A stretch of 64,000 nt of DNA from Acholeplasma equirhinis (GTDB taxonomy: Bacteria > Bacillota_I > Bacilli_A > Acholeplasmatales > Acholeplasmataceae). Under the pieces are notes generated by a model. That model had not been told where the DNA came from. It was given only the letters and a program-made list of their open reading frames with translations, and searched no databases. The stretch spans positions 930,001 through 994,000 of the forward strand of contig NZ_JAFIDC010000001.1 of assembly GCF_017052655.1 (NCBI RefSeq). The letters are read 5' to 3'. Position 1 is the stretch's first letter, and each line of letters opens with the position of its first letter. Positions 23,287-63,674 of this stretch are shown piece by piece. A program made the position numbers and the translations under genes.

Positions 23287-24636
23287 TTAGAATTGTACGA
23301 GACTTGCTGCTGCAACAGATTGTCCTAAACGACGGAATTTTTCATCTGGAAGTGATAAATTGATCTTCTTCTTTAATTGAGGGAAGACATTTTTTAAAAC
23401 TTCATTTGCTTTTTTAACGATAAGCATGCCACCTTCGCCTGACATCACACGTCCTAATAATAAGACTTCTGAAATGTCATAGAAAACATCATACCATGCA
23501 AGTCCATATGCTAGATAAGTTCCGATTGTTTCATAGATTTCAATAAATCTTAAATCGTTCTTATCTAATTTTTGAACAACTTTAAGACGTTCTGCTAAAG
23601 TTTGAGAAGGTTCAAATGTAATACCTGCTTTTTCAGCAAGACGAATGACAGCGTCTTGTGAGAAATATTTATTACCGGTACCGTAATCACCACTCCACTC
23701 ATCAACTGGTCCGTTTGGTTGGAAATCAACAGGTACGAATGCAAGTTCATTTAACCAACCTTCGATGTTACCTTTTTCATTCACATAACCAGCTGCTTCA
23801 CTTGTTCCCATTGCAATACCTAAGAGTTTAGTCTTATTTAAAGTCATAGAACCAGCAAGTGCAGTTACGTCACCATCGTTAGCAACAACGATTGGTACAT
23901 TTAATTCTTTAGCAATATCAATGTAGATATTTTTAATATGTTGATCAAATAAATCTTCTGGAACTTCAATAAAGAGTGATGCAACACGTGCTTCATTATT
24001 AATGTAAACACCTGCACTTGAAACCCCAATGGCATCCACTTGTCCTAAAACTTTAACAGCTTTTAAGATAGCATTTCGAATGTGTTGTTTATGATACTCA
24101 GGATCACTATTTAGTTTAGGTAACCAAATGATTTCTTCACTAAATAAGACTTCTCCGTCTTTAACTGCGGAAACCTTCATATCAGATCCACCTGCATCAA
24201 AACCGATACGATTACCATTTAAATGTTTACCAATTGGTTGATCACCTTTTTTAATTTCTGGTAATGATTCGCTGTGTAGAACTTCAAATTTTTCAAGGTA
24301 GATTCGCTCCATGAAAGCTTTATCGAATGTTCTTGCACCTTTATCAAAAATATCTTTTAATCTTTGATGTACTTCTTTATTACCAACAATAATGACTTTA
24401 TAACCACCATAAATCCAAAGTAATGATTTAACTAAACGTTCTAGTAAAAAAATGTTTTCGTCCATCATTACAGCATCACTAAAGATTTCTTGATGGAACA
24501 CTTCATTAAAACCGTCATTTCTTTCAACAACGATTGAAAGTTTTTCGTGATTTGCTTTTAATACACGTTGATTAAATTCGTTATAAACTTCAAATGCAGG
24601 CATAAAGGTTGGATCTAATTTAAGATTTAAACTCAT
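23287..24636 (-). CDS. ROK-like (ASKHA) sugar kinase homologue
   Basis: A 449-aa cytoplasmic protein. The first about 145 residues have no recognised domain. From about 150 the actin-like phosphate-binding motif RIGFDAGGSDMKVSAV appears, then GVSSAGVY, VANDGDVTALAG (the Asp expected as catalytic base) and IAMGTSEAAGYV. This is the order of ROK-type glucose/amino-sugar kinases, but the ROK zinc motif CxCGxxGC is absent. It is the last gene of the long operon, 14 nt after nagB. It is likely a second hexose or amino-sugar kinase next to the BadF-type one at 26771-27667. Which phosphorylates GlcNAc, GlcN or MurNAc cannot be decided by eye. Confidence 0.65.
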   Translation of the reverse strand: MSLNLKLDPTFMPAFEVYNEFNQRVLKANHEKLSIVVERNDGFNEVFHQEIFSDAVMMDENIFLLERLVKSLLWIYGGYKVIIVGNKEVHQRLKDIFDKGARTFDKAFMERIYLEKFEVLHSESLPEIKKGDQPIGKHLNGNRIGFDAGGSDMKVSAVKDGEVLFSEEIIWLPKLNSDPEYHKQHIRNAILKAVKVLGQVDAIGVSSAGVYINNEARVASLFIEVPEDLFDQHIKNIYIDIAKELNVPIVVANDGDVTALAGSMTLNKTKLLGIAMGTSEAAGYVNEKGNIEGWLNELAFVPVDFQPNGPVDEWSGDYGTGNKYFSQDAVIRLAEKAGITFEPSQTLAERLKVVQKLDKNDLRFIEIYETIGTYLAYGLAWYDVFYDISEVLLLGRVMSGEGGMLIVKKANEVLKNVFPQLKKKINLSLPDEKFRRLGQSVAAASLVQF

Positions 24637-24650
24637 TTAAATACCTCTTC

Positions 24651-25379
24651 TTATTTATTTAATAATAGACTTGCTGCGTCTTGATCTAAGAATACATGCA
24701 CATTTGGATGATTTTGTAAAACAGATGCAGGTAGGCTTTCTGAGATTTCACCTTTGATCATACCAAATACTGCTTGTGCTTTATTTTTACCTGTTGCAAT
24801 TAAGACAACTTCTCTAGCACGCATGATATCTTTGATACCCATAGTTACTGCAGTATGTGGAACATCTTCTAATTTTTCAAATAATCTTGCATTATCTTTT
24901 CTTGTTTTTTCTGCAAGAGTTACCATATGTGTGTGTGATTCAAATGGTGTGCCTGGTTCATTAAAACCAATGTGTCCATTTGATCCAAGACCTAATAATT
25001 GAATATCAATAGTCACTGTATCTAGTTGTTCTTGATACTTTTTAATTGCTTCATTTGGTTCAATAGAACCATCTGGAATAAACGTATTGTTTAGATCAAT
25101 ATCGACATGATTGAAAAGATTGTCTCTCATGAAGAAATAATAACTTGCAGGATGACCTTTTTCTAAACCAACATATTCATCTAAATTATATGCTGTAATA
25201 CCTTTAAATGATAATTCACCAGCTTTATAAGCTTTAATTAATTTTTTATATAAAGGAATTGGTGTTGTTCCAGTTGCTAAACCTAAAATCATGTTAGGTT
25301 GATGTGAAATTTTCTCTTTGTAAAACGCCGCTGCTTCTTTGTAAAGTAGATCAACGCTATCATAAATTTTAATATTCAT
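24651..25379 (-). CDS. nagB: Glucosamine-6-phosphate deaminase
   Basis: A 242-aa cytoplasmic enzyme of full family length. It converts glucosamine-6-P to fructose-6-P plus ammonia and so feeds amino sugars into glycolysis. Diagnostic blocks: [15 protein letters not shown] (33-47) phosphate loop, YNLDEYVGL with D67 as catalytic base, [11 protein letters not shown] (79-89), and [15 protein letters not shown] with H136. The start ATG overlaps the upstream GNAT stop as TAATG. It is fed by MurQ and NagZ upstream; the deacetylase NagA that must act between them is not encoded in this window. Confidence 0.95.
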
Positions 25380-25852
25380 TATAAATATAAACCTCTAACT
25401 AGTCTGTCGTAGACATTGCCTTCCATATCGATTGTGATTGCACCTACTGTTTTCTTGTAGAATTCTGCAACCTTTTCATTTACGCCACCGATAATAGCGT
25501 AACCATAACCATCATGTAACATCGCTTCTAGTGAATAAACTAAAAGTGCTGTTCCGATATTTAAACCACGTAATGATTCATCCACACCAATTGGGCCAAA
25601 ATAACCTTTAGCTGTTGCATCATATGCTGCAAATCCAACGATTTTACTATCTTTAACTGCGATAAATGCGGTTGGGTGTGGTTTATAAATTGCAGCTTTG
25701 ATTTCACTTGCCCATCCTTTTGAGAAATTTTTCTCAATAAATGTCACAAGTGCATCAGAATTTGGAGATAATAGGCGAACAATTTTAACGTCACCTTTTG
25801 TTTCTTTTAAACTTAAATTTAAACGATGTAACCCAACGAGTAAATCTTTCAT
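25379..25852 (-). CDS. GNAT-family N-acetyltransferase
   Basis: A 157-aa protein with the GNAT acetyl-CoA pyrophosphate loop as [10 protein letters not shown] (about 95-104), preceded by the beta-strands [17 protein letters not shown] and [10 protein letters not shown] and followed by [16 protein letters not shown]. The substrate is unknown. Its place between murQ and nagB, with a 1-nt overlap into nagB, suggests acetylation of an amino sugar or a muropeptide-derived amine during peptidoglycan breakdown, for example re-acetylation of N-deacetylated murein sugars. That is inference from position only. Confidence 0.75.
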
Positions 25853-25863
25853 ATGATCTCTCC

Positions 25864-26769
25864 TTAAGCTTTTAAGCTTCTTAATGCTTCTTTAATGTTT
25901 CCATTGTTTTGACGAAGTAATTCATCAATCATTTCAACTTCATCAATTTTACCTAGAATTGAAATAACCGCATGTTTAACTGACTTAAATCTTTCAAGAT
26001 AAGCTACTGCTGTTTTTTCTTCAACACCTGTTACTTCACATACAATTGAAATTGCACGAGAAACAAGTTTGTCATTACTCATTTGAATATCAATCATTAA
26101 GTTTTCATAAACTTTACCAAGTTTAACCATGGCAGTTGTTGAAATCATATTAAGAATTAGTTTTTGAGCAGTACCTGATTTCATACGTGTAGAACCAGTT
26201 AACGGTTCTGGGCCTGTAATTGCTGCAATTGGATAGTCTGCAATTTTTGTAATTGGAGCATTCACTGATGTTGTAATAGAACCCGTTTTTGCACCAATTG
26301 ATTTTGCATATTCTAAGCCAGACACAACATAAGGTGTGCGGCCTGATGCTGCAATACCAATTACGAAGTCTTTCTTTGTAAGATTGTAACTCTTTAAGTC
26401 TTCGATTGCTGCTTCTTTATTATCTTCAGCACCTTCAACGGCATTTCTTAAAGCTTTATCGCCACCAGCAATAATACCGATGACCATATTTTCTGGGACA
26501 CCAAAGGTCGGCACACATTCTGAAGCATCAAGAACACCTAAACGTCCTGATGTACCAGCACCAATGTAAAAGAGTCTGCCACCTTTTGAAAGTGCAATAG
26601 TGACTGCATCAACAACTTTCGTAATATCTTCTAAAACTGCTTCAATGGCTTCAGGAACTTTTTTATCCTCTTCATTGATCATTTTTAAGATCTCTTGAGT
26701 TGTTGCAACATCCATGTGCTTGGTTGATTTATTTCTTTGTTCTGTTGAAATTGATTTAATATCGACCAT
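25864..26769 (-). CDS. murQ: N-acetylmuramic acid 6-phosphate etherase
   Basis: A 301-aa SIS-fold enzyme that removes the D-lactyl ether of MurNAc-6-P to give GlcNAc-6-P, the step specific to peptidoglycan sugar use. Signatures: TEQRN near the N-terminus, YIGAGTSGRLGVLDASECVPTFG with the catalytic Glu, GGDKALRNAVEGAEDN, and GSTRMKSGTAQKLILN in the SIS lobe. The start chosen is ATG 26769: the upstream ATG (26778) almost touches the Shine-Dalgarno GAGAAGGG, while 26769 sits 9 nt from it. It lies directly behind the BadF-type kinase stop and upstream of GNAT and nagB. It is strong evidence that MurNAc is metabolised. Confidence 0.95.
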   Translation of the reverse strand: MVDIKSISTEQRNKSTKHMDVATTQEILKMINEEDKKVPEAIEAVLEDITKVVDAVTIALSKGGRLFYIGAGTSGRLGVLDASECVPTFGVPENMVIGIIAGGDKALRNAVEGAEDNKEAAIEDLKSYNLTKKDFVIGIAASGRTPYVVSGLEYAKSIGAKTGSITTSVNAPITKIADYPIAAITGPEPLTGSTRMKSGTAQKLILNMISTTAMVKLGKVYENLMIDIQMSNDKLVSRAISIVCEVTGVEEKTAVAYLERFKSVKHAVISILGKIDEVEMIDELLRQNNGNIKEALRSLKA

Positions 26770-26770
26770 A

Positions 26771-27667
26771 TTAACCATCCCTTCTCATGTACGCTTTAGC
26801 TAAATTATAACCACCATATACTGGTTCATGCGTACCCGTTTCATATAAAAAGTTGATATTTTTTTGATTTAATAAGTTTAGAAGTTGACCCTTCAAGCCG
26901 TTTGCATTTTGAATGAAACCGCCTCGAAGCACAAGTTTGAAAGTATCTTTGATTTTAAGTGTCTTAATGATTTTTTCAATCATAGATAACATTACTTTAG
27001 CTTCTTTTAAGTAAAGCTTTTGCACATATGCATGGTTTGATTCTTTATCAATCAATCTTGCAATACCTGCAATCACTTGTTTTGTTTCTTTATGCGCAAA
27101 TCCAATAATTTCTTCTCTAGTTTTTAAACCTAATTGTTTTAATACTTTCTTTTGAACAGGATTAGGTTTTTTGAGTGCATCGATTCTTTCCATTGTTTCA
27201 TTTAGAAGTCTAATTGAAACTGAATATGCAGAACCATAATCACCAAAGATATGTCCATATCCGCCAAATCTATGTACATTACCTTCATAAATCGCATAAG
27301 AAATCGAGCCTGTACCTGCAACTTGATAGATAAAAGGATATTTATCATCATAGTTAGCGTATAAACCTAAGTAGGCATCAGGATAAATCTTTACTGCTGT
27401 TTGATATCTTTCTTCAAGTGCTTTCTCATATGCTTTGATATCTGGGATTCTAGAGTAACCTGCTGCACCAATGACAATCATATCAATTGACTGGCCTAAA
27501 GTTAACTCATCTAATACCTTTTGTACTTCATTTTTTGCGTTATCTAAGTTGACTGCGAAGTTTGATTGAGAGGTTGTAAATGATTTTAATTCATTACCCA
27601 CTTCATCATAGATGATACCAAGTGTTTTTGTACCACCACTATCAACTGAAATAAACTTTTTACTCAT
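26771..27667 (-). CDS. BadF/BadG-type N-acetylglucosamine/N-acetylmuramic acid kinase (MurK/NagK-like)
   Basis: A 298-aa ASKHA kinase. The N-terminal FISVDSGGTKTLGIIYD is the phosphate-1 motif of the BcrAD/BadFG sugar-kinase family; YQVAGTGSISYAI and FGGYGHIFGDYGSAYSVS follow, then LVLRGGFIQNANG. In a NagZ-MurQ context this family phosphorylates free GlcNAc and/or MurNAc at C6, as described for clostridial MurK, which would provide the MurQ substrate. Start ATG 27667 is chosen over an in-frame TTG (27673); it overlaps the nagZ stop by 8 nt. Specificity towards MurNAc is inferred from the operon. Confidence 0.8.
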   Translation of the reverse strand: MSKKFISVDSGGTKTLGIIYDEVGNELKSFTTSQSNFAVNLDNAKNEVQKVLDELTLGQSIDMIVIGAAGYSRIPDIKAYEKALEERYQTAVKIYPDAYLGLYANYDDKYPFIYQVAGTGSISYAIYEGNVHRFGGYGHIFGDYGSAYSVSIRLLNETMERIDALKKPNPVQKKVLKQLGLKTREEIIGFAHKETKQVIAGIARLIDKESNHAYVQKLYLKEAKVMLSMIEKIIKTLKIKDTFKLVLRGGFIQNANGLKGQLLNLLNQKNINFLYETGTHEPVYGGYNLAKAYMRRDG

Positions 27668-29225
27668 ATGCAATAGGTGCCTTTCCTTTAGGGATTAAAA
27701 CACCTTTTAAGTACTTGATGCATGCTTCGATTGAGTTTGGTGTGTATTCATAGAATGCAACATAGTTTTTAATACCTTTTGCATAATATAAATCATATGG
27801 ATTTCTCATAGCAAGTACATGTAATTCAATACCCAGTTCATTTAATGCATTCATTAAAAGAATTTGAGATTGATATACATTTGCATTGTATGATGTAAAG
27901 ATAATTTGATCATAACCTTTAGCTTGATCCACAAGTTGATTGATTTGTTCTTCGCTTGGTGTAATACCAATTTCAACTAAATCAAGGTTAGGTAATGCAT
28001 TTTTAATCTTTTTACCTAAAGCTGAGTTAAAGTCTGCTTCATCTGCAATCGTTGTTGCAATTGGAAGTGTTGCAATCATTAAAGCTTTATCTTTTAATTT
28101 TAAAGTGTCACCTTTAATTAAAGTCACTGCATCTTCTACAATTTGTTTAGCATATTGTTTAGAGTTTTGATCTTCAACAGTCGCTTTTACAGTTTCATAT
28201 GAATCAACCAAGTTAACAGTTAATTCACTTTTGAATTTAAGGATACGTTCAACACGTTCATCAAGTGTTGATTCTAATAATTCACCAGTTTCTAGTGCTT
28301 GCATTAAACGATCAGATGCACCAATTTGATATGGCATATCATGACAGATACATACAAGGTTTGCACCAGCATTCACACTCATTAAAGTTGCTTCAATTGC
28401 ACCCCAATGATTGTGGATTGCTTTCATTTCAATACCATCTGTCACAATTAAACCTTCAAAGCCCATTTCTTCACGTAGTAAACCTTGAAGAGCTCTCTTT
28501 GATAATGTGACTGGTAAGCCGTCTTCAGTTAATGCAGTGAAGTTAATATGACTTGACATAATTGCTTTAATACCTGCATCAATTGCTGCTTTAAATGGTT
28601 TGAATTCAAACTTAGCAAGTTCAGATAATGGTTTAGTTACTGTTGGTAATGCTAAATGAGAGTCAAGGTAAGTATCTCCATGACCTGGGAAATGCTTAGC
28701 AGTTGCTACAACGTGATTTTGCATACCTTTCATATTTGCAATACCAAATTCTGATACCATTTCTGGTTTATCACTGAAACTTCTTACACCAATAACAGGG
28801 TTTTTAGGATTACTATTCACATCAAGTACTGGTGCTAAATTCATATTAATACCTAGTGAAATGAGTTGTTTACCCATCAAATCTCCTAGGTTATACGCAT
28901 TCTTTGAATCAAAAGTTGCTGCCATTGTCATGGCACCAGGGAAGAATGTTGCATCATCGAAAATACGTGTAACCATACCACCTTCTTGGTCGATAGAAAT
29001 ATACATAGGCATGCCTAATGCATCCATCGCAATTCTTTGAAGATCTTGATTAAGTTTATAAAGTTGAGCTGCTGATTGAACATTTCTAGTAAAGAGTAAG
29101 ATGTTACCTACTTTATACTCTCTAATTAAGTTTTCTAATTCTTTTGTGACTTCAGTTCCATGGAACCCTGCCATAATTAATTGTCCAATTTTTTCTCTTT
29201 GAGTTAAGCTTTTTAGTTCACGCAT
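27660..29225 (-). CDS. nagZ: Beta-N-acetylglucosaminidase, GH3, cytoplasmic
   Basis: A 521-aa GH3 enzyme. ATAKHFPGHGDTYLDSHLALP (K177-H178, D188-S-H190) carries the Asp-His dyad that marks NagZ-type GH3 enzymes, and IVTDGIEMKAI provides the nucleophile D263. It releases non-reducing GlcNAc from GlcNAc-MurNAc saccharides or muropeptides. It has a C-terminal second domain like B. subtilis YbbD but no signal peptide, whereas the Bacillus enzyme is secreted; here cleavage should happen after import. It overlaps namZ by 8 nt (TGA stop) and the kinase by 8 nt, so translation is coupled. Confidence 0.93.
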   Translation of the reverse strand: MRELKSLTQREKIGQLIMAGFHGTEVTKELENLIREYKVGNILLFTRNVQSAAQLYKLNQDLQRIAMDALGMPMYISIDQEGGMVTRIFDDATFFPGAMTMAATFDSKNAYNLGDLMGKQLISLGINMNLAPVLDVNSNPKNPVIGVRSFSDKPEMVSEFGIANMKGMQNHVVATAKHFPGHGDTYLDSHLALPTVTKPLSELAKFEFKPFKAAIDAGIKAIMSSHINFTALTEDGLPVTLSKRALQGLLREEMGFEGLIVTDGIEMKAIHNHWGAIEATLMSVNAGANLVCICHDMPYQIGASDRLMQALETGELLESTLDERVERILKFKSELTVNLVDSYETVKATVEDQNSKQYAKQIVEDAVTLIKGDTLKLKDKALMIATLPIATTIADEADFNSALGKKIKNALPNLDLVEIGITPSEEQINQLVDQAKGYDQIIFTSYNANVYQSQILLMNALNELGIELHVLAMRNPYDLYYAKGIKNYVAFYEYTPNSIEACIKYLKGVLIPKGKAPIAYE

Positions 29226-30354
29226 ACAGATGATACCTTTCCTTGATTTTGATAAATTCTAGTTGATCTTTTTTGAAACTTTCAAATATTTCTTCCAATT
29301 TTTTACCCATTCGTAAGTCATCGTTACCAGTTAAGAGATCAATCATTTGTTTTTGACCTTCTCTCCAAGGTTCACGGAACTCAAATTCAGGATAATCATT
29401 TTGAATAATTCTTAAAATTTGATAACCTGCCTCAATCGGACGGATTGTTTCTTTGTCCATAAGGAAAAGTTCAATTCCCTGACTCAACACACCTTGATGT
29501 TTTGAAAACGTTGGTGTAAAGAATATTGGTCGAACTTTTAAACCAGGTAAATTAAGTGCTTTAACCTTATCTGCAAGGAGAAATGCATTAATAAATGGTG
29601 CACCAACAATTGAGAATGGTCTTGTTGTTCCACGACCTTCTGAAACGTTTGTCCCTTCGAAGACACATGTTGCAGCATAAAGGTATGCTGAATCATGTGT
29701 TGGAAGATTTGGACTTGGTGCGAGCCAAGGTAAATCTTTTGATAAATAATCTTTACTGCGATCGTAACCTTCCATTGGAATGACAGTTAAGTCACAACCA
29801 ATTTTGAATTCTTTATTGAATAAAAGTGCAAGTTCGCCAACAGTTAGACCATATCTTTGTGGGATACTGTAATATCCAACAAATGAACGGTATTCAAGGT
29901 TTAACAAATTACCTTCAACCTTGATACCACCGAGCGGATTAGGGCGGTCAAAGACTACGAACTTAAGTCCAAATTCTTTAGCCGCCATCATCGCATAGGC
30001 CATTGTATAAATGTATGTATAAAATCTTAATCCAACATCTTGGATGTCATAACAAAGCACATCAACATCTTCTAACATTTCTTTTGATAAGCGTCTGGTC
30101 TTACCATATAGTGAGTAGACATATAAACCTAATCTTTCATCAAGGTAACTTTCGACATGTTCGCCTGCCTCTGCGTTACCAAAAATACCATGTTCAGGTC
30201 CATAGAGTTTTGTTAAATTCACCTTAGATTTAAGGATATCAGCGGTATGGACCAAATTGGAATCAACACCAGTTGGGTTGGTAATTAAACCAACCTTTTT
30301 ACCTTCAAATAATGCTTTAAATTCATCAATTCGGTCAATACCTAATTTAATCAT
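29218..30354 (-). CDS. namZ: Exo-beta-N-acetylmuramidase NamZ (GH171, DUF1343), cytoplasmic
   Basis: A 378-aa member of the YbbC/DUF1343 family, now known as exo-N-acetylmuramidase. It removes MurNAc from the non-reducing end of MurNAc-GlcNAc chains. Family blocks: VGLITNPTGVD (21-31), YGPEHGIFG (51-59), CYDIQDVGLRFYTY (101-114), FDRPNPLGG, LAPSPNLPT and EGTNVSEGRGTTRPF. There is no signal peptide; the Bacillus protein is secreted, so the compartment differs. The pairing namZ-nagZ, alternating MurNAc and GlcNAc cleavage, matches the B. subtilis murein-sugar operon. It overlaps the DUF624 gene by 8 nt. Confidence 0.92.
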   Translation of the reverse strand: MIKLGIDRIDEFKALFEGKKVGLITNPTGVDSNLVHTADILKSKVNLTKLYGPEHGIFGNAEAGEHVESYLDERLGLYVYSLYGKTRRLSKEMLEDVDVLCYDIQDVGLRFYTYIYTMAYAMMAAKEFGLKFVVFDRPNPLGGIKVEGNLLNLEYRSFVGYYSIPQRYGLTVGELALLFNKEFKIGCDLTVIPMEGYDRSKDYLSKDLPWLAPSPNLPTHDSAYLYAATCVFEGTNVSEGRGTTRPFSIVGAPFINAFLLADKVKALNLPGLKVRPIFFTPTFSKHQGVLSQGIELFLMDKETIRPIEAGYQILRIIQNDYPEFEFREPWREGQKQMIDLLTGNDDLRMGKKLEEIFESFKKDQLEFIKIKERYHLYA

Positions 30355-30991
30355 TTTTCTTATCCAGACTTTCTATAAATAATGTAACTTTTTTAAATAA
30401 TAATGCATAAAGTAGCATTGGGATTGAAATACCTGCAATTACGAAGAATACAATCGTAATTGGCGTTAAAAGTAACGCAAATGGAACAAGTAGAATTAAG
30501 ACTGCAAGGACAGTTCTTAAAATATATTTTCCACTTAGGAAGAACGCAAACTTAATAATTAACCAAGTTTCAGTTTTTGGATACGTAATCATAATTGGTA
30601 ATGTGTAGAGCATTGTAAACCCTGCTGCTACAACTAAGATGATCATGACATAATAACCAATCAGTGAAAAGATATCTGAGTTAAGGTTTAAGTAATCTGT
30701 ATAGATTGTCATATTGATGATACCTATTACCATAGCACCAGCAAGTAAGAAACCTAATTGTAACTTTTTACCAAAATCTTCTTTGAAGAAATTCCAGAAA
30801 CCTTTAATAATTGGTACTTCACGTTTATTTAAGTAATGCGTAAAGAGTTTGTACCCTGCAAGTAATGCAGGATACATTGTGACGATTGGTAAACTAAATA
30901 AAATGATCAGAATATTGATAAGTACAAGTCGTAAAATCCAATCGGCAACAGTATTTAGTTTTTGATAAAGTGAACTTTCATATGTTTTCAT
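30347..30991 (-). CDS. DUF624 (YesL-like) membrane protein
   Basis: A 214-aa protein with about five hydrophobic helices and the DUF624 pattern: an N-terminal ...YQKLNTVADWILRLVLINIL, then MYPALLAGYKLFTHYL, and a short cytoplasmic mid-loop before the remaining helices. DUF624 genes are typically found beside CUT1 sugar permeases, including yesL of the B. subtilis pectin cluster, and their role is unknown. It overlaps the permease before it by 1 nt and namZ after it by 8 nt. It therefore links the transporter genes directly to the amino-sugar genes in one transcript. Confidence 0.8.
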   Translation of the reverse strand: MKTYESSLYQKLNTVADWILRLVLINILIILFSLPIVTMYPALLAGYKLFTHYLNKREVPIIKGFWNFFKEDFGKKLQLGFLLAGAMVIGIINMTIYTDYLNLNSDIFSLIGYYVMIILVVAAGFTMLYTLPIMITYPKTETWLIIKFAFFLSGKYILRTVLAVLILLVPFALLLTPITIVFFVIAGISIPMLLYALLFKKVTLFIESLDKKND

Positions 30992-38501: not shown

Positions 38502-38503
38502 CG

Positions 38504-54584: not shown

Positions 54585-57500
54585 CTAGTATTTTTTAAAT
54601 ACGATAAATCCTAAACCTAACATAGTGATTGCACCAAGTAAAGCTAACATAAATGTTGGTGCATCCCATAAGAACCAACATCCTGTTGCAGGTTGTGGTT
54701 CTGGTGTAACTGTTTTAGCTTGCCATTTAGCATATAAGGTCATATCTTCAAAAATAGCTGTACCAAAACTAAATTCTTGTGTTAAAGCTTCGTCTTTAAA
54801 CCATCCAACAAAGTCATAACCTTCTTTAGTTGGTGCTGTAGGTCTTGTTGCATGTGTATCTTTTGGAACCGTTTGTGATTCTACTTCTGAACCTCCATTT
54901 GTATTAAATGAAACGGTTACTTCTACAACTGGTTCTTGTTCTTGTTCATACTTCGCATAAAGTGTGATATTTGAAGTGATTGGTGTATCAAAGTCAAAGC
55001 GTTGTGTTAGTGCTTGATCAATATACCAACCTTCAAAGTTAAAGCCAGGTTTTGTTGGCTCAATTGGTTCTTCTGCGAACATACCTTCTTGAACGATTTG
55101 ATATGCAACATTTGAACCACCATTTGTATCAAATGTAACTGTGTAATTTACAATTGGCTGTGGTTCAGATACTGTTGTATCCCACGGGAATGTTGCACGT
55201 TTTGTCCAGAATATATTTTGTAGTCTTGTAATCGCTTGTGTCACAAATGCATGTGGACTATTTAAAGTCTTATAACTGAAGAATGATGAACCAATTATTT
55301 CATCATATTGTGACATGTAGCGAATTTGTTCTAATAATTCATTTTGATCTGTCCAGTTATTTGATGTTTCAGCATAACGGTAGAAACCTTGACCAATAAT
55401 TAACTTAACATCTGTACCAGAAACTGTTTCAACCCACCAGTCAACTAAATCAGCAAAGCGTGCAGTTGAATGGTTAAATTGCCAGTAAAGCTGAGGGATG
55501 ATATAGTGTAACCAACCTTCTTTAACCCACTTACGGCTATCTGCATATTGTGCAGAGTAACTTTGTAAGCCTTGTGAGTTAGAACCTATTGGATCAGATG
55601 TTTTGTTTTGCCAAATACCAAATGGTGAAATACCAAATTTAACAGCTTTTTGATTGCTTGAATTATGTGTTTCTACCATTTCAAAGATTGTCTTAACAAG
55701 TTCGTTAATGTTTTCTCTACGCCAATTATCGCGTGATAAACTATTTGGATTATTTGCTAGGAATGCAACTTCATCTTCAGCATTAGGTGTACCGTTATAA
55801 CTATAGAAATAGTCATCGAAGTGAACACCATCAACATCGTAGTTAGCCATTAATTCAGCAATAATGTTATATAAGTATTGTCTAACTTCAGGAATACCAG
55901 GATTTAAGATTAAATGTCCTGATGTGTCTTGGATAACATAACTTGGATTTTGTTTTGCAAAGTTGTCATTTGATAATTGTGCAAGTTGATCTGCTTTTGT
56001 TCCGGTACCTGATGAAACGCGATAAGGATTCATCCAAGCATGGACTTCAATACCACGTTTATGTGCTTCAGTAATTAAATATTCAAAGACATCCCAACCT
56101 GGATCAACACCTTCAGTACCAGTTAAGTATCTTGAGAAAGGTGCATATTCTGAAGGATAGAAACTATCATTCATAGAACGTGTTTGGAAGAAAATAGTAT
56201 TAAAGTTTAACGCAGTTAGTCTATTTAAGATTGAAATGATTTTCGCTTTATAATCTGCTTGACTTGTATGTAAACCAATATCAATATTTGATACTGTTGC
56301 TACCCATACTGCACGAATTTCTTCATCTTTTTCAGTATAAGTTGTAGGTAATTCTACTGGTGTTTGTGTATTGTAATAATAAACAAATTGACCATCACGA
56401 ATGACGTATTGATTGTCTTCGTTATATGGCATATTCATACGAATTCTGACTTCTTCAACTTCACTTTCAATACCACCAGCATTGACTGCTTTATATTGAA
56501 CTGTGAATGTACCATTATAGTTGAATGTTAGAGGTTCAGAATATGTTGTCCAAGAACCCCATGAAACACCATTGTGCATGCGATATTTAATTGTGTTTCC
56601 GGCTTGTGCTACAAATGAAAGTATGGTTGGTGAGACATAGTAAATACCTTCCATATCACCTTCAATGTTATAGTTTGGAATTGCAGGTAAACCTACAATT
56701 GTAAATTCTTTCGAATGTATCGTATCACCATTTGCATTACGATATTCAAATTTATATGTACCTGATTGAGCAAAATCAACTGGTGTTGTGTAATTTTGCC
56801 ATGCACCACCATTAATTCTAAATTGTGGTTGTGGTGATTGTGCATTGATTGTGATTTCTAACCATGTATAGTTTGGATCTTCACCTTCACCAGCAAGTTC
56901 TAATGTTGGTTGTGCATAACCTACTTGATAAGTTTTTTGAACTTCAGCAGAGTCCACTCCACCTGAATCTTTAGTTTTTGCATAAATGACATAATTACCT
57001 GAAACAAGTGTTGCATCATCTAAAGTAAATGGACCTGTATATAATGTCCAATCAATTGATTGGTTACCATGATTATATTTGTACCAAATTTGGCCACTAG
57101 CTGCTGTAATTGTGACAGCTGACCCAACTTGATAACGACCGTTTGGTAAGACATTACCATTAATTGTAATATTTGGTAAGACGTTATTCACACGATCTAC
57201 TGAGAAACTTTCAGATGCAATGTTAGAATTTTCTTCTGCACCTTGGGCATAGTATGAGAATGTATGATTGCCATTTGAATTTACAACAACTGGTGTTGTA
57301 TATAATTGATATTCACCACTGTTTAATTTGTAATAAATTGGTAAATCAGATGAAAGTGTAATTGTAACTTCACTTGTATAGAATAAACCTACCTTTGTAC
57401 CAGCAATGTTAATTGTTGGTTGAGGTACGCTTGATTGATATGTTGGTCCTAAATGGTTTGTTTGAGACATTGCTCTCACACCATATGTATATGTACCAGC

Positions 57501-59030
57501 TGCATCACCTGTTGGTACAGTGATTTGTGCATCTGATGAATTACCAACAACTTTAAAGATTTGTTCATCTGAGTAATTTAATGCACCAGTTGAACGATAA
57601 ACGTAATAGAATTTAGCATTTTCTTGAGTGTCAAATTTTAAATTACCTGAAGTATGTGAAATATTTGTTACTGCATTTGGAATAATTGGGTCAAAACTTT
57701 GTAAAACTGGTAAATGAGTTTTCGTTTGCCATGAAGATTCATGTGCAGCTCTCACTTGTTTTGCAGAATTTGAAGTAAGTCCATTTTTACCATTTAATAA
57801 ATCATTATAACGATAGACTGAGAATCCTTGTGCATTTTCTAATGTTCTTAAGAAATTCATTTGTTTTGTGAATTCAGCTGGATCATTATACCAAGAATAG
57901 TTACCTGTACCATCAGCCATGTAAACACCAATACCTGAGTATAGATTTACATTTAAATATTTAGTAACTTTATCCCACCAACCCATCACGTTTTGGTATC
58001 CTGCAGCAGGATGTGTATGTCCCCAATAAGTTTGAGGTAAGATGTAATCTAACCAACCTTCAGAGATCCATTTAAGTGAATCAGCAAATAAATAAGATGA
58101 ATAGTGTGTTTGACCTGTTGAAACTGAACCCGTTGTTATTGGTTTTCCTTGTGCATCATAAGTAACAACACCATTACCATTTTTATAAATACCGGTTGGT
58201 GAAATACCAAATTGAACACGACGTCCAGTTACTTCGTTAAAATCTGATAATAAATCATGAATACCTTCAATTAAAATATTTACTTGTTCTCTTCTCCAGT
58301 CAGCTTTTGAAGCTGCACTTGATGTATTATAACCAGCACCATATGTAACAAATGTTGCTTGGTCTGGTTCACTTAAAATTGTTGTTGCACCAGTAGTTGC
58401 ACCGTTTGCACCCATATTTGTATAGAAATAATCATCAAAGTGGATTGCATCAACTGGATAACGTTCAATAATTTCTTCGATTGTGTCATAGATGTGTTGA
58501 CGTACGTTTGGTAACCCTGGATTTAAGATTGCACCATTTAGTACATTTGATGCATTTGATTCCGGGTTAGCAGCTGGCATTGAACCAACTCTATATTGAG
58601 AACTTACACGATATGGGTTTAACCATGCGTGGAACTCAATACCACGACGATGTGATTCCTCAACAAACCATAACATTGGGTCAAATACATCCCAATCAGC
58701 TACACCTGCCATAAATGATGCTCTTGGGTTGATTGCAGATTTGTATAATGCATTGTTATGTGTTCTAAAGTGAACAATGACTGCATTGAAATTGAAATAT
58801 TCTAATGTATCAAGTACTTTAGTTACTTCAGTTTTCCATTGTGCTTCATTTTGATAATTAGGCATACTTGAGATGAAGTTTGAAAGCCATGCAGCTCTAA
58901 ACTCACCTTTTTCTTCCACGATTACATTTTGTGCATCTAAAATTTCTGTCATCTCTGCATAGGTTTCATCTTGCGGTAAAACAGCTATCAAAGAGACAAT
59001 TGTTAATAGTAAAATTATTAATTTCTTCAT
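54585..59030 (-). CDS. Secreted double-domain GHL10 (DUF187) glycosidase with InlB_B repeats and C-terminal anchor
   Basis: 1481 aa. Sec signal peptide (ends near ETYAEM). First GHL10 barrel about 40-430 (FRAAWLSNF, HAWLNPYRVSSQY, VDAIHFDDYFYT, YILPQTYWG). Fibronectin/CHB_HEX_C-like beta domains about 440-870. Second GHL10 barrel about 897-1277 (IRAVWVATV, HAWMNPYRVSS, VDGVHFDDYFYS, YIIPQLYW). InlB_B repeats about 1295-1362 and 1368-1437, then ATGCWFLW (Cys1451), a TM helix and the tail FIVFKKY. GHL10 proteins are TIM-barrel glycosidase-like; both barrels keep the HFDD acid pair. Given the neighbours, the substrate is probably murein glycan. The two barrels differ, so they may cut different bonds. 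Confidence 0.82.
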   Translation of the reverse strand: MKKLIILLLTIVSLIAVLPQDETYAEMTEILDAQNVIVEEKGEFRAAWLSNFISSMPNYQNEAQWKTEVTKVLDTLEYFNFNAVIVHFRTHNNALYKSAINPRASFMAGVADWDVFDPMLWFVEESHRRGIEFHAWLNPYRVSSQYRVGSMPAANPESNASNVLNGAILNPGLPNVRQHIYDTIEEIIERYPVDAIHFDDYFYTNMGANGATTGATTILSEPDQATFVTYGAGYNTSSAASKADWRREQVNILIEGIHDLLSDFNEVTGRRVQFGISPTGIYKNGNGVVTYDAQGKPITTGSVSTGQTHYSSYLFADSLKWISEGWLDYILPQTYWGHTHPAAGYQNVMGWWDKVTKYLNVNLYSGIGVYMADGTGNYSWYNDPAEFTKQMNFLRTLENAQGFSVYRYNDLLNGKNGLTSNSAKQVRAAHESSWQTKTHLPVLQSFDPIIPNAVTNISHTSGNLKFDTQENAKFYYVYRSTGALNYSDEQIFKVVGNSSDAQITVPTGDAAGTYTYGVRAMSQTNHLGPTYQSSVPQPTINIAGTKVGLFYTSEVTITLSSDLPIYYKLNSGEYQLYTTPVVVNSNGNHTFSYYAQGAEENSNIASESFSVDRVNNVLPNITINGNVLPNGRYQVGSAVTITAASGQIWYKYNHGNQSIDWTLYTGPFTLDDATLVSGNYVIYAKTKDSGGVDSAEVQKTYQVGYAQPTLELAGEGEDPNYTWLEITINAQSPQPQFRINGGAWQNYTTPVDFAQSGTYKFEYRNANGDTIHSKEFTIVGLPAIPNYNIEGDMEGIYYVSPTILSFVAQAGNTIKYRMHNGVSWGSWTTYSEPLTFNYNGTFTVQYKAVNAGGIESEVEEVRIRMNMPYNEDNQYVIRDGQFVYYYNTQTPVELPTTYTEKDEEIRAVWVATVSNIDIGLHTSQADYKAKIISILNRLTALNFNTIFFQTRSMNDSFYPSEYAPFSRYLTGTEGVDPGWDVFEYLITEAHKRGIEVHAWMNPYRVSSGTGTKADQLAQLSNDNFAKQNPSYVIQDTSGHLILNPGIPEVRQYLYNIIAELMANYDVDGVHFDDYFYSYNGTPNAEDEVAFLANNPNSLSRDNWRRENINELVKTIFEMVETHNSSNQKAVKFGISPFGIWQNKTSDPIGSNSQGLQSYSAQYADSRKWVKEGWLHYIIPQLYWQFNHSTARFADLVDWWVETVSGTDVKLIIGQGFYRYAETSNNWTDQNELLEQIRYMSQYDEIIGSSFFSYKTLNSPHAFVTQAITRLQNIFWTKRATFPWDTTVSEPQPIVNYTVTFDTNGGSNVAYQIVQEGMFAEEPIEPTKPGFNFEGWYIDQALTQRFDFDTPITSNITLYAKYEQEQEPVVEVTVSFNTNGGSEVESQTVPKDTHATRPTAPTKEGYDFVGWFKDEALTQEFSFGTAIFEDMTLYAKWQAKTVTPEPQPATGCWFLWDAPTFMLALLGAITMLGLGFIVFKKY

Positions 59031-59036: not shown

Positions 59037-60248
59037 TTAGCCCTTCCTCTCGTTTAATAATTTTTGAACAAGTTCCATGCCTGCTTTAGAACCTGCTTGA
59101 TCAATAAATGTTTTATATGTGAAGAAAACATTTCCCTTCACGGTCTCAAATTGATTTGCAAATTTTAATTGATTAACAACTTCAAGTGGATTTTCATAAC
59201 CACCTTCACTACCTAATCGATAAGCACCATGACCAATGTATAAATCACAGTTTGTACCTTTAACAATATCTGCCCACCAAACTGCTAAATCAGCAAATGG
59301 TGCAAGGACATGACCAAAGTCCCAATATAGTTGTGGAATAATGTAATCAATGTATCCTTCTTTAATCCATAAAACTGAATCTGCATATTGATTTGAATAA
59401 GATTCACTACATTTTGGGTCAGTATTTGAACCAGCAGGATCAGATGCTTGATTTTTCCAAATTCCAAATGGTGAAACACCAAATCGTTTACCACTGAATT
59501 TTGATTTGATTTCTTCATTTAAACGTTTAATGACTTCTGTGATTTGGTCACGTCTAAATTGATCAAGACTAACCTTTTTGCCACTTGCTTCATAATCCGC
59601 AAGATCGTTATCACTTTCTGATAAACCTGCATAAGGATAGAAATAGTCATCAAAGTGAATACCTGCAATATCTTTATAGTTTTCAAGTATTTCTAACATA
59701 GATTCAATAATGAAATCTTTAACTTCTTTTTTCGCTGGATTTAAAATTAAACCACCGTTTTTATCAACAATCACAAATTCAGGATGTTGTTTTGCAAAGT
59801 TTAAATCATCACAAGTTTCTAAGTATTGCGCTTTTGTTAAATCTTTTTGCATAGAAACTCGATATGGGTTACACCATGCATGAATTTCAATATTTCTTTT
59901 TTTAGCTTCATCTAAAACAAAATCTAAGATATCAAATGGTGGTTCTTGTCCTTCTTTTTCAACAAGATATCTTGAATATGGATTTAATTTTGATTTATAA
60001 AATGCATCGCTAGTTGTTCTAACTTGGAAAAAGATTGTATTAATATTGAAATTTACCGCTGTATCAAACATTTCAAGTACTTTTGCCTTATATTCAGGGT
60101 TCGTTGCAGGTGGTAGGTCAATATTGACAACATTTGAAACCCAGAAAGCTCTCACTTCTTTTTGATTAAAGGTTTCTGGAATTTCTACCTGGCGGTCTGT
60201 TTGGAAGTAGTTTAATGGTAAGCCAGTCTTAAAGTTAAATAATTTCAT
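59037..60248 (-). CDS. Cytoplasmic single-domain GHL10 (DUF187) glycosidase
   Basis: 403 aa, no signal peptide. Same barrel as both domains of the next gene: VRAFWVSNVVNIDL, TIFFQVRTTSDAFY, EIHAWCNPYRVS, IAGIHFDDYFYPY (the two Asp likely catalytic), FGVSPFGIW and DYIIPQLYWDFGH. It resembles the second secreted barrel more than the first by these motifs. It overlaps GH4 by 14 nt and is followed 6 nt later by the secreted version. A secreted/cytoplasmic pair of one enzyme family suggests the same bond is cut first in the polymer and again in imported fragments. Confidence 0.82.
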   Translation of the reverse strand: MKLFNFKTGLPLNYFQTDRQVEIPETFNQKEVRAFWVSNVVNIDLPPATNPEYKAKVLEMFDTAVNFNINTIFFQVRTTSDAFYKSKLNPYSRYLVEKEGQEPPFDILDFVLDEAKKRNIEIHAWCNPYRVSMQKDLTKAQYLETCDDLNFAKQHPEFVIVDKNGGLILNPAKKEVKDFIIESMLEILENYKDIAGIHFDDYFYPYAGLSESDNDLADYEASGKKVSLDQFRRDQITEVIKRLNEEIKSKFSGKRFGVSPFGIWKNQASDPAGSNTDPKCSESYSNQYADSVLWIKEGYIDYIIPQLYWDFGHVLAPFADLAVWWADIVKGTNCDLYIGHGAYRLGSEGGYENPLEVVNQLKFANQFETVKGNVFFTYKTFIDQAGSKAGMELVQKLLNERKG

Positions 60249-61527
60249 TGATTTCTGCTCCGTAGTATTTCAAGTATTGTTCGTTTAATTTAAGTAAATG
60301 TTTAAATGCAAGTTCTGCTTTTATTGAAGACTTTGTCATCGGATGCAGTTTAATTGCCATTAATGCTTTGTTAAGGTTCTTTTCATATATTGCATCACAT
60401 AAAAGTTCTTCATATGCTTTTTGATGTTGCACTAAACCTTTCACTGCTTGAGGTAATTCACCAATATGTACCGGAAGTGGTCCACGGTTAGTTAAGCGTG
60501 ATGTAATTTCAATCGCACATTCTTCTCTGATATCTGTGATATGTCCACGGTTAACCGTATTCACAACGTGATACGTTTTCTTATTTAAGACAATTGATGC
60601 CATGATATTCATGACTTCTTCAGCATAATTTGCACCATCTCTTAAATCAAGTTCTTTTGGTCTTTCATTGAGCGATTCATCTTTATAAATGTTAAATAGT
60701 TTCTCTTCAATCAATTTAACTTCTTTACTTCTTGCTTCTAATACTTTACGTTGATTTAAGATTTCTTCGTATTGAATCAAATAAATCAAACTTGGATTTG
60801 GATATGATTCAATAATTTTTAAATCAACTTCTCGCATCGGAATGCGTTCATAAAGTTTTTTACTCTTTAAAAGTTCTGCCATTTTGTTTCTATGGTTATG
60901 ATAAACCTTTACTGCAAATGACAATTCATTCAATCCACCGATATATGGGATTAAATCTTGTTTTGCAACACCAAGTGAATCAGCAAGTTCTTGGTGCATC
61001 TTTACAGGGTCTGTACAAATCCCTATAAATCGATCATATTCTGAGAAACGGAAGACAGCTTCACTGATAATCCCAATTGGATTTGAAATACATAATGTCC
61101 ATGCATTTGGTGCAATTTCTTTTATATCTTCGATGATTTCATAAACAACCGGTACCGTACGTAATGCTGAGAACATACCACCAATACCTAATGTTTCATG
61201 ACCAATCATGTCGTAATTAAATGGAATCGTTTCATCATAAAATCTTAAATCCTGTTTACCAACTCGGATTTGTAAAACGACAAAATCAGCATCTTTCAAT
61301 GCTTCTTTTCTGTTTGTTGTGGACTCAACTTCAATTTCCAAATTATGTTTCTTAAACATTCTTTTTGCGAGTCCATTAATCATCATGAGTCTTTCTATGT
61401 TGGATTCTAAATCAACTAATGTAACATTTCTAATTTCAAGTGCTTCTGACTTTTTAATGATTTGGTTGATCAGTTCAGGTGTATATGTAGATGCACCACC
61501 GATTACAACAATTTTTAGTTGTTTCAT
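60235..61527 (-). CDS. GH4-family NAD/metal-dependent 6-phospho-glycosidase
   Basis: 430 aa, LicH/CelF-type. Rossmann motif VVIGGASTYTPELI (6-19), VLQIRVGKQDLRFYDE, TLGIGGMFSALRTVP, CISNPIGII, GICTDPVKM with the metal-binding Cys, and RDGANYAEEVMNIM with the catalytic Tyr. GH4 enzymes split 6-phosphoglycosides by an NAD-assisted elimination. Unusual: the GLNH block that normally supplies the metal-binding His reads GGLNELSF, so His is Glu. Substrate may be a phosphorylated murein disaccharide or a cellobiose-type 6-phosphate; context favours the former but does not prove it. The start follows ACGAGGGTTTAC, 14 nt after anmK. Confidence 0.82.
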   Translation of the reverse strand: MKQLKIVVIGGASTYTPELINQIIKKSEALEIRNVTLVDLESNIERLMMINGLAKRMFKKHNLEIEVESTTNRKEALKDADFVVLQIRVGKQDLRFYDETIPFNYDMIGHETLGIGGMFSALRTVPVVYEIIEDIKEIAPNAWTLCISNPIGIISEAVFRFSEYDRFIGICTDPVKMHQELADSLGVAKQDLIPYIGGLNELSFAVKVYHNHRNKMAELLKSKKLYERIPMREVDLKIIESYPNPSLIYLIQYEEILNQRKVLEARSKEVKLIEEKLFNIYKDESLNERPKELDLRDGANYAEEVMNIMASIVLNKKTYHVVNTVNRGHITDIREECAIEITSRLTNRGPLPVHIGELPQAVKGLVQHQKAYEELLCDAIYEKNLNKALMAIKLHPMTKSSIKAELAFKHLLKLNEQYLKYYGAEINEII

Positions 61528-61541: not shown

Positions 61542-62687
61542 CTATTTGTAGTAAACAACGCTACCAGAAATTACTTTTTTATTTGCTCCAGTTGTTGATG
61601 GAATGGTTGAGGTTTGTCGATTGATTGTTTGGTTTCCAAGAACAATAAAGGCAAGTGCTTCTTTAAAATCAATTGAAAGATTTAAATCTTCGGATGTTAA
61701 AACTTTTGTAGGATATAATTTTGTTTCAAGAAATTTCATGAGATAAGTGTTTTTTGCACCACCACCTGAAACAATAAGTTCATCAATACTTTCAAGTTTT
61801 GAATATCTTTTAATCGCATCAACCATTGTTTTGGCTGTTGCATATGTCAGTGTATGAATTAAATCTTCTTTTGAATAATTTTTGTATTTTTTTAATAGGG
61901 AATCTGTGTATTCAACGCCAAATTGTTCACGTCCTGCTGATTTAGGTGGTAATTTTTCTAAGAATGGATGACTTTTAATTTCATCATATAACGCATCAAT
62001 TAATCTGCCTTTTGATGCCACTTTGCCACCATCATCATACGGTTTGTCGAATAAGACTTCCATAGCATGATTGATCATCATGTTGCCAGGACCGGTATCA
62101 AATGCAAACACTTCAGCTTCATTTGCATTTTTTGGTAAAACAGTAATATTTGAGATACCACCAATATTTTGTAGAATTCTATTTTTTGTTTTGTGGGTAA
62201 ATAAAATGTAATCAACATATGGTACGAGCGGTGCACCTTGTCCACCTGCGGCCATATCACGTACTCTAAAGTCGTATATAACATCAGTTTTGACAAGTTC
62301 TGCAATGACTGCACCTGCACCAAGTTGAAGTGTCGATGGATTCAAATATGCATCTTTTACACCTTGGTGATAAATCGTTTGTCCATGACTTGCAACAAAT
62401 GAAAGATTTGACGATTCAATGCCAACACTTTTACACAATTCAAGTACACATTCACCGTAGAGTTTTCCTAGCTCAAAATTTATGCTAGATACTTCTCTTA
62501 CGGTTGCTTTATTTTCGATTGCTTTTTTTACAAGTTCTAATATTTTTTCAGGATATGGAAAAGTTTTTGCTGTAATAAGTTCAATTTTTGTGTCAATCCC
62601 TAAACCACTAATGGATGCAATTGCAACATCAATGCCATCGAGTGACGTACCACTCATTATGCCACACGCTAATTTTCCCTCATTCAT
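61542..62687 (-). CDS. anmK: 1,6-anhydro-N-acetylmuramic acid kinase
   Basis: 381 aa, full family length. CGIMSGTSLDGIDVAI (8-23) is the AnmK signature, with FVASHGQTIYHQG, YDFRVRDMAAGGQGAPLVPYVD, NIGGISNITVLP and FDTGPGNMMINHAME. It opens and phosphorylates anhydroMurNAc, the end sugar left by lytic transglycosylases, giving MurNAc-6-P for MurQ. It is the first gene of the operon. A TATAAT (62725-62720), an inverted repeat and a cre site lie upstream. Its presence shows that anhydro-ended murein turnover products are used as well as hydrolytic ones. Confidence 0.95.
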   Translation of the reverse strand: MNEGKLACGIMSGTSLDGIDVAIASISGLGIDTKIELITAKTFPYPEKILELVKKAIENKATVREVSSINFELGKLYGECVLELCKSVGIESSNLSFVASHGQTIYHQGVKDAYLNPSTLQLGAGAVIAELVKTDVIYDFRVRDMAAGGQGAPLVPYVDYILFTHKTKNRILQNIGGISNITVLPKNANEAEVFAFDTGPGNMMINHAMEVLFDKPYDDGGKVASKGRLIDALYDEIKSHPFLEKLPPKSAGREQFGVEYTDSLLKKYKNYSKEDLIHTLTYATAKTMVDAIKRYSKLESIDELIVSGGGAKNTYLMKFLETKLYPTKVLTSEDLNLSIDFKEALAFIVLGNQTINRQTSTIPSTTGANKKVISGSVVYYK

Positions 62688-62746: not shown

Positions 62747-62760
62747 TGTAAGCGTTATTA
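62747..62760. promoter_or_regulatory. Candidate cre (CcpA) site upstream of anmK
   Basis: TGTAAGCGTTATTA matches 13 of 14 cre positions and sits at the -35 edge of the anmK promoter. Confidence 0.6.
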
Positions 62761-62785
62761 TTTAGAATATTTATTTCAAATAAAG

Positions 62786-62815
62786 AAAAAACACTTTCAT
62801 GAAAAAAGTGTTTTT
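62786..62815. terminator. Intrinsic terminator after murR
   Basis: AAAAAACACTTT pairs with AAAGTGTTTTT around a short loop, with T/A tails on both strands. It separates murR from the anmK operon. Confidence 0.75.
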
Positions 62816-62828
62816 ATGTTGTTTTTGA

Positions 62829-63674
62829 TTATCTTTTAAACTTTTTAAAAGTTCTATATGTTGTTTCTAATGCTTGAATTGAACGATCTATATCTGTGTA
62901 TGCACATTTAGCAAACAAAGCATCTACAACTGACATTTGAGATATTCTTGATGTCATTGCTGCAGATCTAAATTCACTTTCAAGTGCTGATGTGTAGAGT
63001 ACGACATCTGAAAGGTCTGCAAGTACACTCGAACCAATTCTTGTAATCGAAATGATTGGTGTTTTGTTCTCTTTTGCAAGTAATGCAGCAGAGACAATTT
63101 CTTTTGTCTTCCCTGAGTTTGACACAAAGATGACAACATCTTTTTGATTGATAAATGATGCATCAACCAATTGATCATGTGATTCACCTTGAGCAATCGC
63201 GAATTTATTAATTCTTCGTAGTTTCATCTCTAAGTCTTTACACACTAAGTAAGATGAACCTTTACCGAAAATTAATATTTTCCTTGCATTCATGATTAAA
63301 AACGCAGCTTTCGTAAACGTCTTTTCATCATATAGTTTTATGGTTTCTTCAAGTGCACGAATATTATTCTCAATCGCTTTTTTACCACTATTTTGGTCTT
63401 TGATTAAGATGATATCGTTGTACTCAGTTGTCTCTGGAATTTCTACTTTTGAATTCGATAGAATAAAATCAATTTTAAAATCTTTAAATCCTTTGTAACC
63501 CAGTTTCTTACACATTCTTACAACAGATGCAGGTGACGTGTAGGCAGCTTCAGCAATTTTTTCTACGCTAAAGTCGGTAAGGACTGATTTATTTTCTATG
63601 AGGTAGTCTAGGACAACTCTTTCGGCCATACTCAAAGCTTCTTTATTTTTAAGCATGTTTAACATTACACTCAT
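62829..63674 (-). CDS. murR: RpiR/MurR-family transcriptional regulator (HTH_6-SIS)
   Basis: 281 aa. The N-terminal HTH_6 has EKIAEAAYTSPASVVRMCKKLGYKGFKDFK, and a SIS domain covers about 120-260 (ILIFGKGSSYLVCKD, VIFVSNSGKTKEIVSAA). RpiR proteins sense phosphosugars; next to anmK and murQ the ligand is expected to be MurNAc-6-P. Start ATG 63674 is preferred to an in-frame GTG (63686), which lies inside the Shine-Dalgarno AAGAGGTG. It has its own promoter and terminator, and the candidate operator is in the next intergenic region. Confidence 0.85.
   Translation of the reverse strand: MSVMLNMLKNKEALSMAERVVLDYLIENKSVLTDFSVEKIAEAAYTSPASVVRMCKKLGYKGFKDFKIDFILSNSKVEIPETTEYNDIILIKDQNSGKKAIENNIRALEETIKLYDEKTFTKAAFLIMNARKILIFGKGSSYLVCKDLEMKLRRINKFAIAQGESHDQLVDASFINQKDVVIFVSNSGKTKEIVSAALLAKENKTPIISITRIGSSVLADLSDVVLYTSALESEFRSAAMTSRISQMSVVDALFAKCAYTDIDRSIQALETTYRTFKKFKR

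Follow-up and report, generated by a model that had tools for sequence, protein, structure and literature searches.

We propose that a locus of 27 genes in Acholeplasma equirhinis enables this wall-less bacterium to catabolise foreign murein, derived from necromass and perhaps from prey, and we consider this reading very probable. The locus lies in the window analysed here, a stretch of 64,000 nucleotides (contig NZ_JAFIDC010000001.1, positions 930,001 to 994,000; G000:C1:930001-994000) from a genome of 1,446,424 bases that is 99.75% complete, and all coordinates below are those of the window unless a contig is named. A survey of open reading frames and family profiles placed all 27 genes on the minus strand between 23287 and 63686, and the majority of the gaps between them are shorter than 15 bp or negative (overlaps). 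The first-pass annotation of this DNA had described a one-strand block of about 40 kb made up of murein-related families, and every family that it named is present there, with the family profiles agreeing for AnmK, the BadF kinase, MurQ, NagB and MurR. What speaks for the proposal is that a complete set specific for N-acetylmuramic acid (MurNAc) occurs in one run. Gene content, the predicted locations of the products, the absence of wall synthesis, conserved gene order and purifying selection were computed, and from these we infer the substrate of the importer, the activities of the enzymes and the feeding role.

The host was suspected in the first-pass annotation to be an Acholeplasma/Izemoplasma-type mollicute, which its placement in the genus Acholeplasma bears out, and the search for wall-synthesis genes proceeded one family at a time. 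The sole Mur-ligase domain in the genome, and hence the only candidate for MurC to MurF, belongs to a 410-residue FolC encoded next to valS, and the sole gene with the enolpyruvylshikimate phosphate (EPSP) synthase fold, the only candidate for MurA, is AroA, in an aro operon between aroB and the chorismate mutase gene; both matches were rejected as wall genes. Domain searches of the genome for the MraY family and for penicillin-binding protein transpeptidases returned nothing, and the identical wall-gene searches matched in 10 to 14 of 14 control genomes. The finding that had been named as able to overturn the feeding proposal, a complete pathway of murein synthesis within this genome, was looked for and did not appear in these searches. 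The host has no recognisable route of murein synthesis, and because it appears to make no wall, the target of the locus would be the murein of other bacteria, as had been suggested.

The downstream part of the locus encodes the enzymes expected to act on MurNAc and N-acetylglucosamine (GlcNAc). The exo-N-acetylmuramidase NamZ (29218 to 30354) passes the cut-offs of both of its Pfam domains (PF07075, 284.5 bits; PF20732, 152.7 bits) and carries a core motif, PEHG at residues 53 to 56, that is invariant in 13 homologues. It is followed by NagZ, a GH3 beta-N-acetylglucosaminidase (27660 to 29225; PF00933, 303 bits; 368 bits to 6k5j) with the motifs KHFPGHGDT and VTDG, and by a BadF-family kinase (26771 to 27673; PF01869). 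The closest solved relative of the kinase is the MurNAc/GlcNAc kinase 8zo3 (78 bits), and both its family and this structural relative fit a MurK-like enzyme. Curated equivalog cut-offs are passed by the MurNAc-6-phosphate etherase MurQ (25864 to 26778; TIGR00274, 373.7 bits), the glucosamine-6-phosphate deaminase NagB (24651 to 25379; TIGR00502, 259.6 bits) and, near the upstream end of the locus, the anhydro-MurNAc kinase AnmK (61542 to 62687; NF007142, 508.7 bits). NagA lies elsewhere in the genome (C1:283570) with a score above its cut-off, and the predicted pathway therefore reaches fructose-6-phosphate. Upstream of AnmK is a regulator of the RpiR/MurR type (62829 to 63686; PF01418 and PF01380).

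The run continues beyond the end of the window. Directly upstream of the MurR-type gene is lctD, of which the 3' end occupies 63763 to 64000 and the remainder extends on the same strand to about 65163 (L147:763-2163); its product scores 517 bits to the lactate dehydrogenase subunit LctD (7qh2_C), and EtfA and EtfB accompany it in four relatives (G148, G023, G031 and G155). MurQ releases D-lactate, which the predicted LctD can take. Since NagA, NagB and LctD are all present, the sugar, acetyl, amino and lactyl parts of MurNAc each have a predicted fate. Beyond lctD is a secreted phosphodiester glycosidase of the NAGPA family (L147:763-3724 spans both genes; G000:C1:993762-996723). The substrate that NAGPA cleaves is GlcNAc-1-P-6-mannose, and a similar GlcNAc-1-P-6 bond links wall teichoic acid to MurNAc; because the bonds are similar, we speculate that this protein may cut the teichoic acid linkage and free MurNAc-6-phosphate from Gram-positive walls.

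The enzymes that would act on the polymer are encoded upstream of the importer genes, and their locations, like those of all the products, come from a hydropathy and lipobox scan, which is a heuristic rather than a trained predictor. Two lipoproteins have Amidase_2 domains: one combines this domain with a beta-helix and Big_2 (47825 to 50833; PF01510, 48.2 bits) and the other (50963 to 53533; PF01510, 57.4 bits) scores 57.9 bits to XlyA (3hmb). Both retain the His, His and Cys zinc ligands of XlyA, and both have lipoboxes, in keeping with the extracellular amidases of the first-pass annotation. A giant protein of 1481 residues (54585 to 59030) contains two GHL10 domains (PF02638, 352.7 bits, in two stretches), and a 403-residue protein (59037 to 60248) contains one (PF02638, 204.6 bits). 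In both the closest match is Cwp19 (5oq2), with 306.5 and 296.8 bits, respectively. The annotation had taken the GHL10 proteins for secreted glycosidases, which holds for the giant one in that it has a signal sequence, together with a C-terminal membrane segment, but not for the 403-residue one, which, lacking a signal sequence, is predicted to be cytoplasmic. AnmK acts on anhydroMurNAc, and DigH of Escherichia coli is also a GHL10 protein. Cwp19 is a lytic transglycosylase, the products of which end in 1,6-anhydroMurNAc (PMC6016235), and DigH degrades the denuded, peptide-free glycans that amidases produce (PMC12288456). Hence, while the assignment to GHL10 stands, these proteins are better read as putative lytic transglycosylases of the Cwp19 type than as plain glycosidases, and the presence of AnmK in the locus would be explained by the anhydroMurNAc ends that such enzymes leave.

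Neither a signal sequence nor a membrane helix was detected in NamZ, NagZ, the kinase, MurQ, AnmK, the small GHL10 protein, a GH4 family glycosidase (60235 to 61527; PF02056 and PF11975) and a beta-lactamase-family hydrolase resembling AmiE (53530 to 54573; PF00144, 153 bits; SLSK at 58 and YSD at 143). All eight are predicted to be cytoplasmic, which for NamZ, NagZ and the AmiE-like enzyme is where they had been placed before. Predicted surface depolymerases, an importer and cytoplasmic enzymes are found together in this one locus, as expected of a system for using the murein polymer.

From this arrangement the following route can be proposed. The surface amidase lipoproteins would strip stem peptides and free the glycan, which the secreted Cwp19-like GHL10 lytic transglycosylase would cut to leave 1,6-anhydroMurNAc ends, and the large ATP-binding cassette (ABC) complex would bind and import the oligosaccharides. 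In the cytoplasm the small GHL10 protein, NamZ, NagZ and the AmiE-like hydrolase would yield MurNAc, GlcNAc and anhydroMurNAc, to be phosphorylated by MurK and AnmK. MurQ would convert the product to GlcNAc-6-phosphate and D-lactate, NagA and NagB would carry the former to fructose-6-phosphate and ammonia, and the lactate would be oxidised by LctD, with EtfAB in several relatives. Regulation is probably by the MurR-type protein. Wall-cutting enzymes on the surface of the cell that makes them would be harmless to it because it has no wall.

The same surface amidases and GHL10 protein might also lyse living neighbours on contact, with the locus harvesting what is released. This would be a sub-case of murein feeding, in which killing and feeding would use the same parts, and the lipoboxes of the amidases would hold these enzymes at the cell surface. 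However, no feature of the locus points to live-cell targeting, and scavenging of dead biomass is sufficient and agrees with the isotope probing study discussed below, so that we regard contact lysis as unlikely.

The importer of the proposed murein route is of an unusual eight-gene form. Two CUT1 permease pairs and large binding proteins span 30991 to 44079, and the module itself comprises a 974-residue solute-binding protein (39450 to 42374), a first permease pair (two reading frames, 37617 to 39436; PF00528), an NHL-repeat/TPR protein with a terminal membrane helix (36134 to 37606; weak matches to PF01436 and TPR), a Yip1-domain membrane protein (35496 to 36137; PF04893), a DUF5696 protein (32905 to 35499; PF18952, 505.5 bits) and a second permease pair (two reading frames, 30991 to 32905; PF00528). 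The NHL/TPR and Yip1 proteins are conserved in relatives. An N-terminal membrane helix is predicted in both the 974-residue and the DUF5696 proteins. The former has N-terminal beta domains followed by an oligosaccharide-binding domain (SBP_bac_1 at 584 to 874), and the best fold matches to its AlphaFold2 model (mean confidence, pLDDT, 87.6) are oligosaccharide-binding proteins. A second binding protein, a lipoprotein of 544 residues with a lipobox and an Ig-like domain (42445 to 44079; PF16403 and PF01547), is encoded next to it. In the wall-less relatives a DUF624 membrane protein gene (here 30347 to 30991; PF04854) always lies between the permease and NamZ.

The eight-gene module is also found in Paenibacillus, Lachnospiraceae, Lederbergia and Haloplasma, there without NamZ or MurQ and in some cases with Yip1 undetected, and its neighbours outside the wall-less clade are GHL10 and GH20, NAGPA, GH67/GH10, GH30, GH5, GH38 or GH43 genes. 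The same importer occurs with GHL10 genes in two metagenome-assembled genomes, one of Haloplasma contractile (L078), which has GH20 as well, and one of Bacilli (L077). Because the module serves other glycan clusters too, its substrate in Acholeplasma has to be deduced from the neighbouring genes. A CUT1-type ABC importer is indeed present, as the first-pass annotation had noted in favour of feeding on foreign murein, but the module alone is not specific for murein; we take it to be a general glycan module that was recruited to murein catabolism in the wall-less clade.

For the same reason DUF5696 was dropped as a dedicated murein enzyme, since the same module stands beside xylan and other clusters. 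Its predicted model (pLDDT 92.3) has a fold resembling the GH129 and GH101 enzymes (Foldseek to 5opq, E 6.3e-29). Two positions of the barrel, 578 and 666, not mapped onto GH129 catalytic residues, carry an acidic residue in 86-89% of the relatives outside the clade but rarely or never in those within it, and this suggests that catalysis by DUF5696 may have been changed or lost in the wall-less bacteria. DUF5696 is unmentioned in the literature searched, which was confined to open-licence papers. A broader reading, in which the wall-less Acholeplasmatales are specialised consumers and perhaps predators, the GH129-fold DUF5696 has turned into a murein-handling subunit, and the NAGPA protein removes teichoic acid from MurNAc to leave MurNAc-6-phosphate for MurQ, is a tentative one that we would put at low probability.

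Given the breadth of the module, the importer together with GH4 and DUF5696 might serve another glycan, with the murein enzymes as mere neighbours. This would agree with the xylan, GH5, GH30, GH38 and GH43 genes that stand beside the module in other Bacillota and with the pectin-type cluster that adjoins the locus. In the wall-less clade, however, NamZ, NagZ and MurK follow the module in every contig that reaches so far, MurQ does so nearly always, and the genes of the module and of the murein enzymes often overlap, which makes a separate glycan improbable.

The distribution of these genes is consistent with the use of foreign murein. NamZ is present in 38 of 160 genomes of the order Acholeplasmatales and in further families elsewhere in the class; within the order, strong MurQ matches occur in all 38 and in one more genome, and AnmK and GHL10 are distributed in nearly the same way. 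A Mur-ligase set was found in 22 of the 160 genomes, only one of which has NamZ and is from another family, and 37 of the 38 NamZ genomes are without such a set. In the exception (G159, L051) the Mur-ligase domain is matched 17 times and the genes stand in another arrangement, AnmK-MurK-NagZ-NamZ, and three other NamZ genomes (G006, G015 and G020) have extra, weaker Mur-ligase-like matches. A Fisher test of the association between NamZ and wall genes gives p = 0.028 but takes no account of kinship. We place no weight on it, since the contrast runs along family lines and so does not amount to independent statistical evidence; the point is rather that these genes persist in 37 genomes that have no wall pathway. 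A contig labelled Candidatus Falkowbacteria (L059) also carries an Acholeplasma-type locus and is probably misbinned.

Gene order is conserved as well. From upstream to downstream the locus encodes the MurR-type regulator, AnmK, GH4, the small and the giant GHL10 proteins, the AmiE-like hydrolase, the two Amidase_2 lipoproteins, an 850-residue surface protein, an Lgt-like protein, the 544- and 974-residue binding proteins, two permeases, the NHL/TPR protein, Yip1, DUF5696, two further permeases, DUF624, NamZ, NagZ, the kinase, MurQ, GNAT, NagB and ROK. The core from the importer to MurQ keeps its order and strand in 19 of 19 wall-less relatives from two families, and in a second collection, the organisms of which are partly shared with the first, NamZ follows the importer in 22 of 22 sufficiently long contigs. 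Synteny extends over the larger stretch between MurR and the importer in seven genomes, which represent two families, with losses that include GH4 in two (G014 and G155; kept in 5/7), AmiE in G003 and the 850-residue protein in G014 (kept in 6/7). A tblastn scan found the same locus in a congener, Acholeplasma equifetale ATCC 29724 (NZ_JHXL01000004.1). In a close pair (G004/G005) the ratio of nonsynonymous to synonymous substitution rates (dN/dS) is 0.006-0.12 for 15 genes, which, being far below 1, indicates that the locus genes are in use. The recurrence of the gene order in other genomes, under purifying selection, argues that the arrangement is not due to chance.

These results bear on two explanations that do without foreign murein. 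In the first, modelled on Bacillus subtilis, the cell would recycle its own wall and could draw on cytoplasmic enzymes of the same families as the known recycling sets, but the host does not make murein by any recognisable route and the NamZ genomes of the order are almost all without Mur ligases, so that this explanation, extremely improbable in our judgement, is refuted unless the missing genes are unrecognisable or lie within the missing 0.25% of the genome. That the locus is an unused leftover of a walled ancestor would accord with the secondary loss of walls in the Acholeplasmatales (PMC10868615) but is scarcely credible given intact frames, an order kept over two families and the low dN/dS.

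Several points weigh against the feeding proposal nonetheless. Feeding, growth, expression and enzyme activity are for this locus matters of prediction, and GH4, ROK, GNAT, DUF624 and Yip1 have no role assigned in the model. Some relatives in the same families are without the gene set, and in walled Bacillota the importer module is found next to clusters for xylan and other glycans. An importer ATPase is absent from the locus, the nearby one being a UgpC-type ATPase (17494 to 18603) of the adjoining pectin-type cluster, which may power the importers. In favour of the proposal, stable-isotope probing of pig slurry identified Acholeplasma as the chief early consumer of 13C-labelled dead E. coli; against it, the authors of that study themselves suggested that what had been taken up was nucleic acid precursors (PMC4628116). 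A second possible route to this label is offered by the locus, although the probing experiment itself does not show murein use.

The pathway relies on chemistry already known. New, as far as the literature searched goes, is the arrangement of its known parts into a locus through which wall-less bacteria would use murein as a polymer; no description of such a locus in Acholeplasma was found, a weak absence as only open-licence papers were covered. The recycling set of B. subtilis is murQ-murR-murP-amiE-nagZ-namZ. NamZ, NagZ, AmiE-type, MurQ and MurR-type families are common to both systems, whereas in Acholeplasma NamZ, NagZ and the AmiE-like enzyme are without signal peptides, an ABC complex serves as the importer, AnmK and GHL10 are included, and the host is wall-less. 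MurK of Clostridium acetobutylicum, from a walled bacterium, is a MurNAc/GlcNAc kinase (as cited in PMC10465942), as is the best solved relative of the kinase described here. Tannerella forsythia scavenges MurNAc by means of MurTKQ and NamZ1/2 (PMC10465942) and likewise uses the murein of other bacteria, but it needs MurNAc for its own wall, while Acholeplasma builds none. In wall-less Spiroplasma, murP-murQ is predicted to allow the use of free MurNAc via a phosphotransferase system; amidase, transglycosylase, NamZ, AnmK and a large importer are not described there, in the available parts of these sources (PMC4607517, PMC12453411). Cwp19 of Clostridioides difficile shares the GHL10 domain, which in it has lytic transglycosylase activity, but belongs to a walled cell, for which it is an autolysin (PMC6016235).

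Mollicutes are usually portrayed as parasites of reduced metabolism. From foreign walls the locus would yield sugar phosphate, ammonia and pyruvate and so give wall-less bacteria an ecological role as free-living or commensal organisms, making them new candidates for the agents that degrade murein in sediments, manure and guts and providing one candidate reason for the early labelling of Acholeplasma from dead bacterial biomass. DUF5696 and the eight-gene importer module gain a genomic context, and with a conserved block across much of the order the eating of walls by wall-less bacteria becomes directly testable.

The remaining genes of the locus include two that are kept as neighbours in the genus, a GNAT acetyltransferase (25379 to 25852; PF00583) and a ROK-family protein, either a sugar kinase or a regulator (23287 to 24636; PF00480, 34.8 bits), which ends the run and is kept after NagB in the genus. 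The 850-residue surface protein (45122 to 47674) is predicted to be secreted, with a signal peptide and a C-terminal membrane anchor. Between its gene and that of the binding lipoprotein is inserted the gene for an Lgt-like prolipoprotein diacylglyceryl transferase (44239 to 45045; PF01790, 112 bits), which is missing from this position in seven compared loci. The count of cre-like operators across the window is not above chance expectation; two such palindromes, each with one mismatch, lie just upstream of the genes for the surface protein (47734 to 47747) and AnmK (62747 to 62760). Beside the locus a 665-residue secreted protein (21007 to 23004) has no Pfam or NCBIfam match, and the pectin-type cluster (1598 to 18603) encodes GH88, a 1571-residue pectate lyase, an aldose epimerase, a galactarate-dehydratase-like enzyme and a 2573-residue pectinesterase lipoprotein with many List_Bact repeats.

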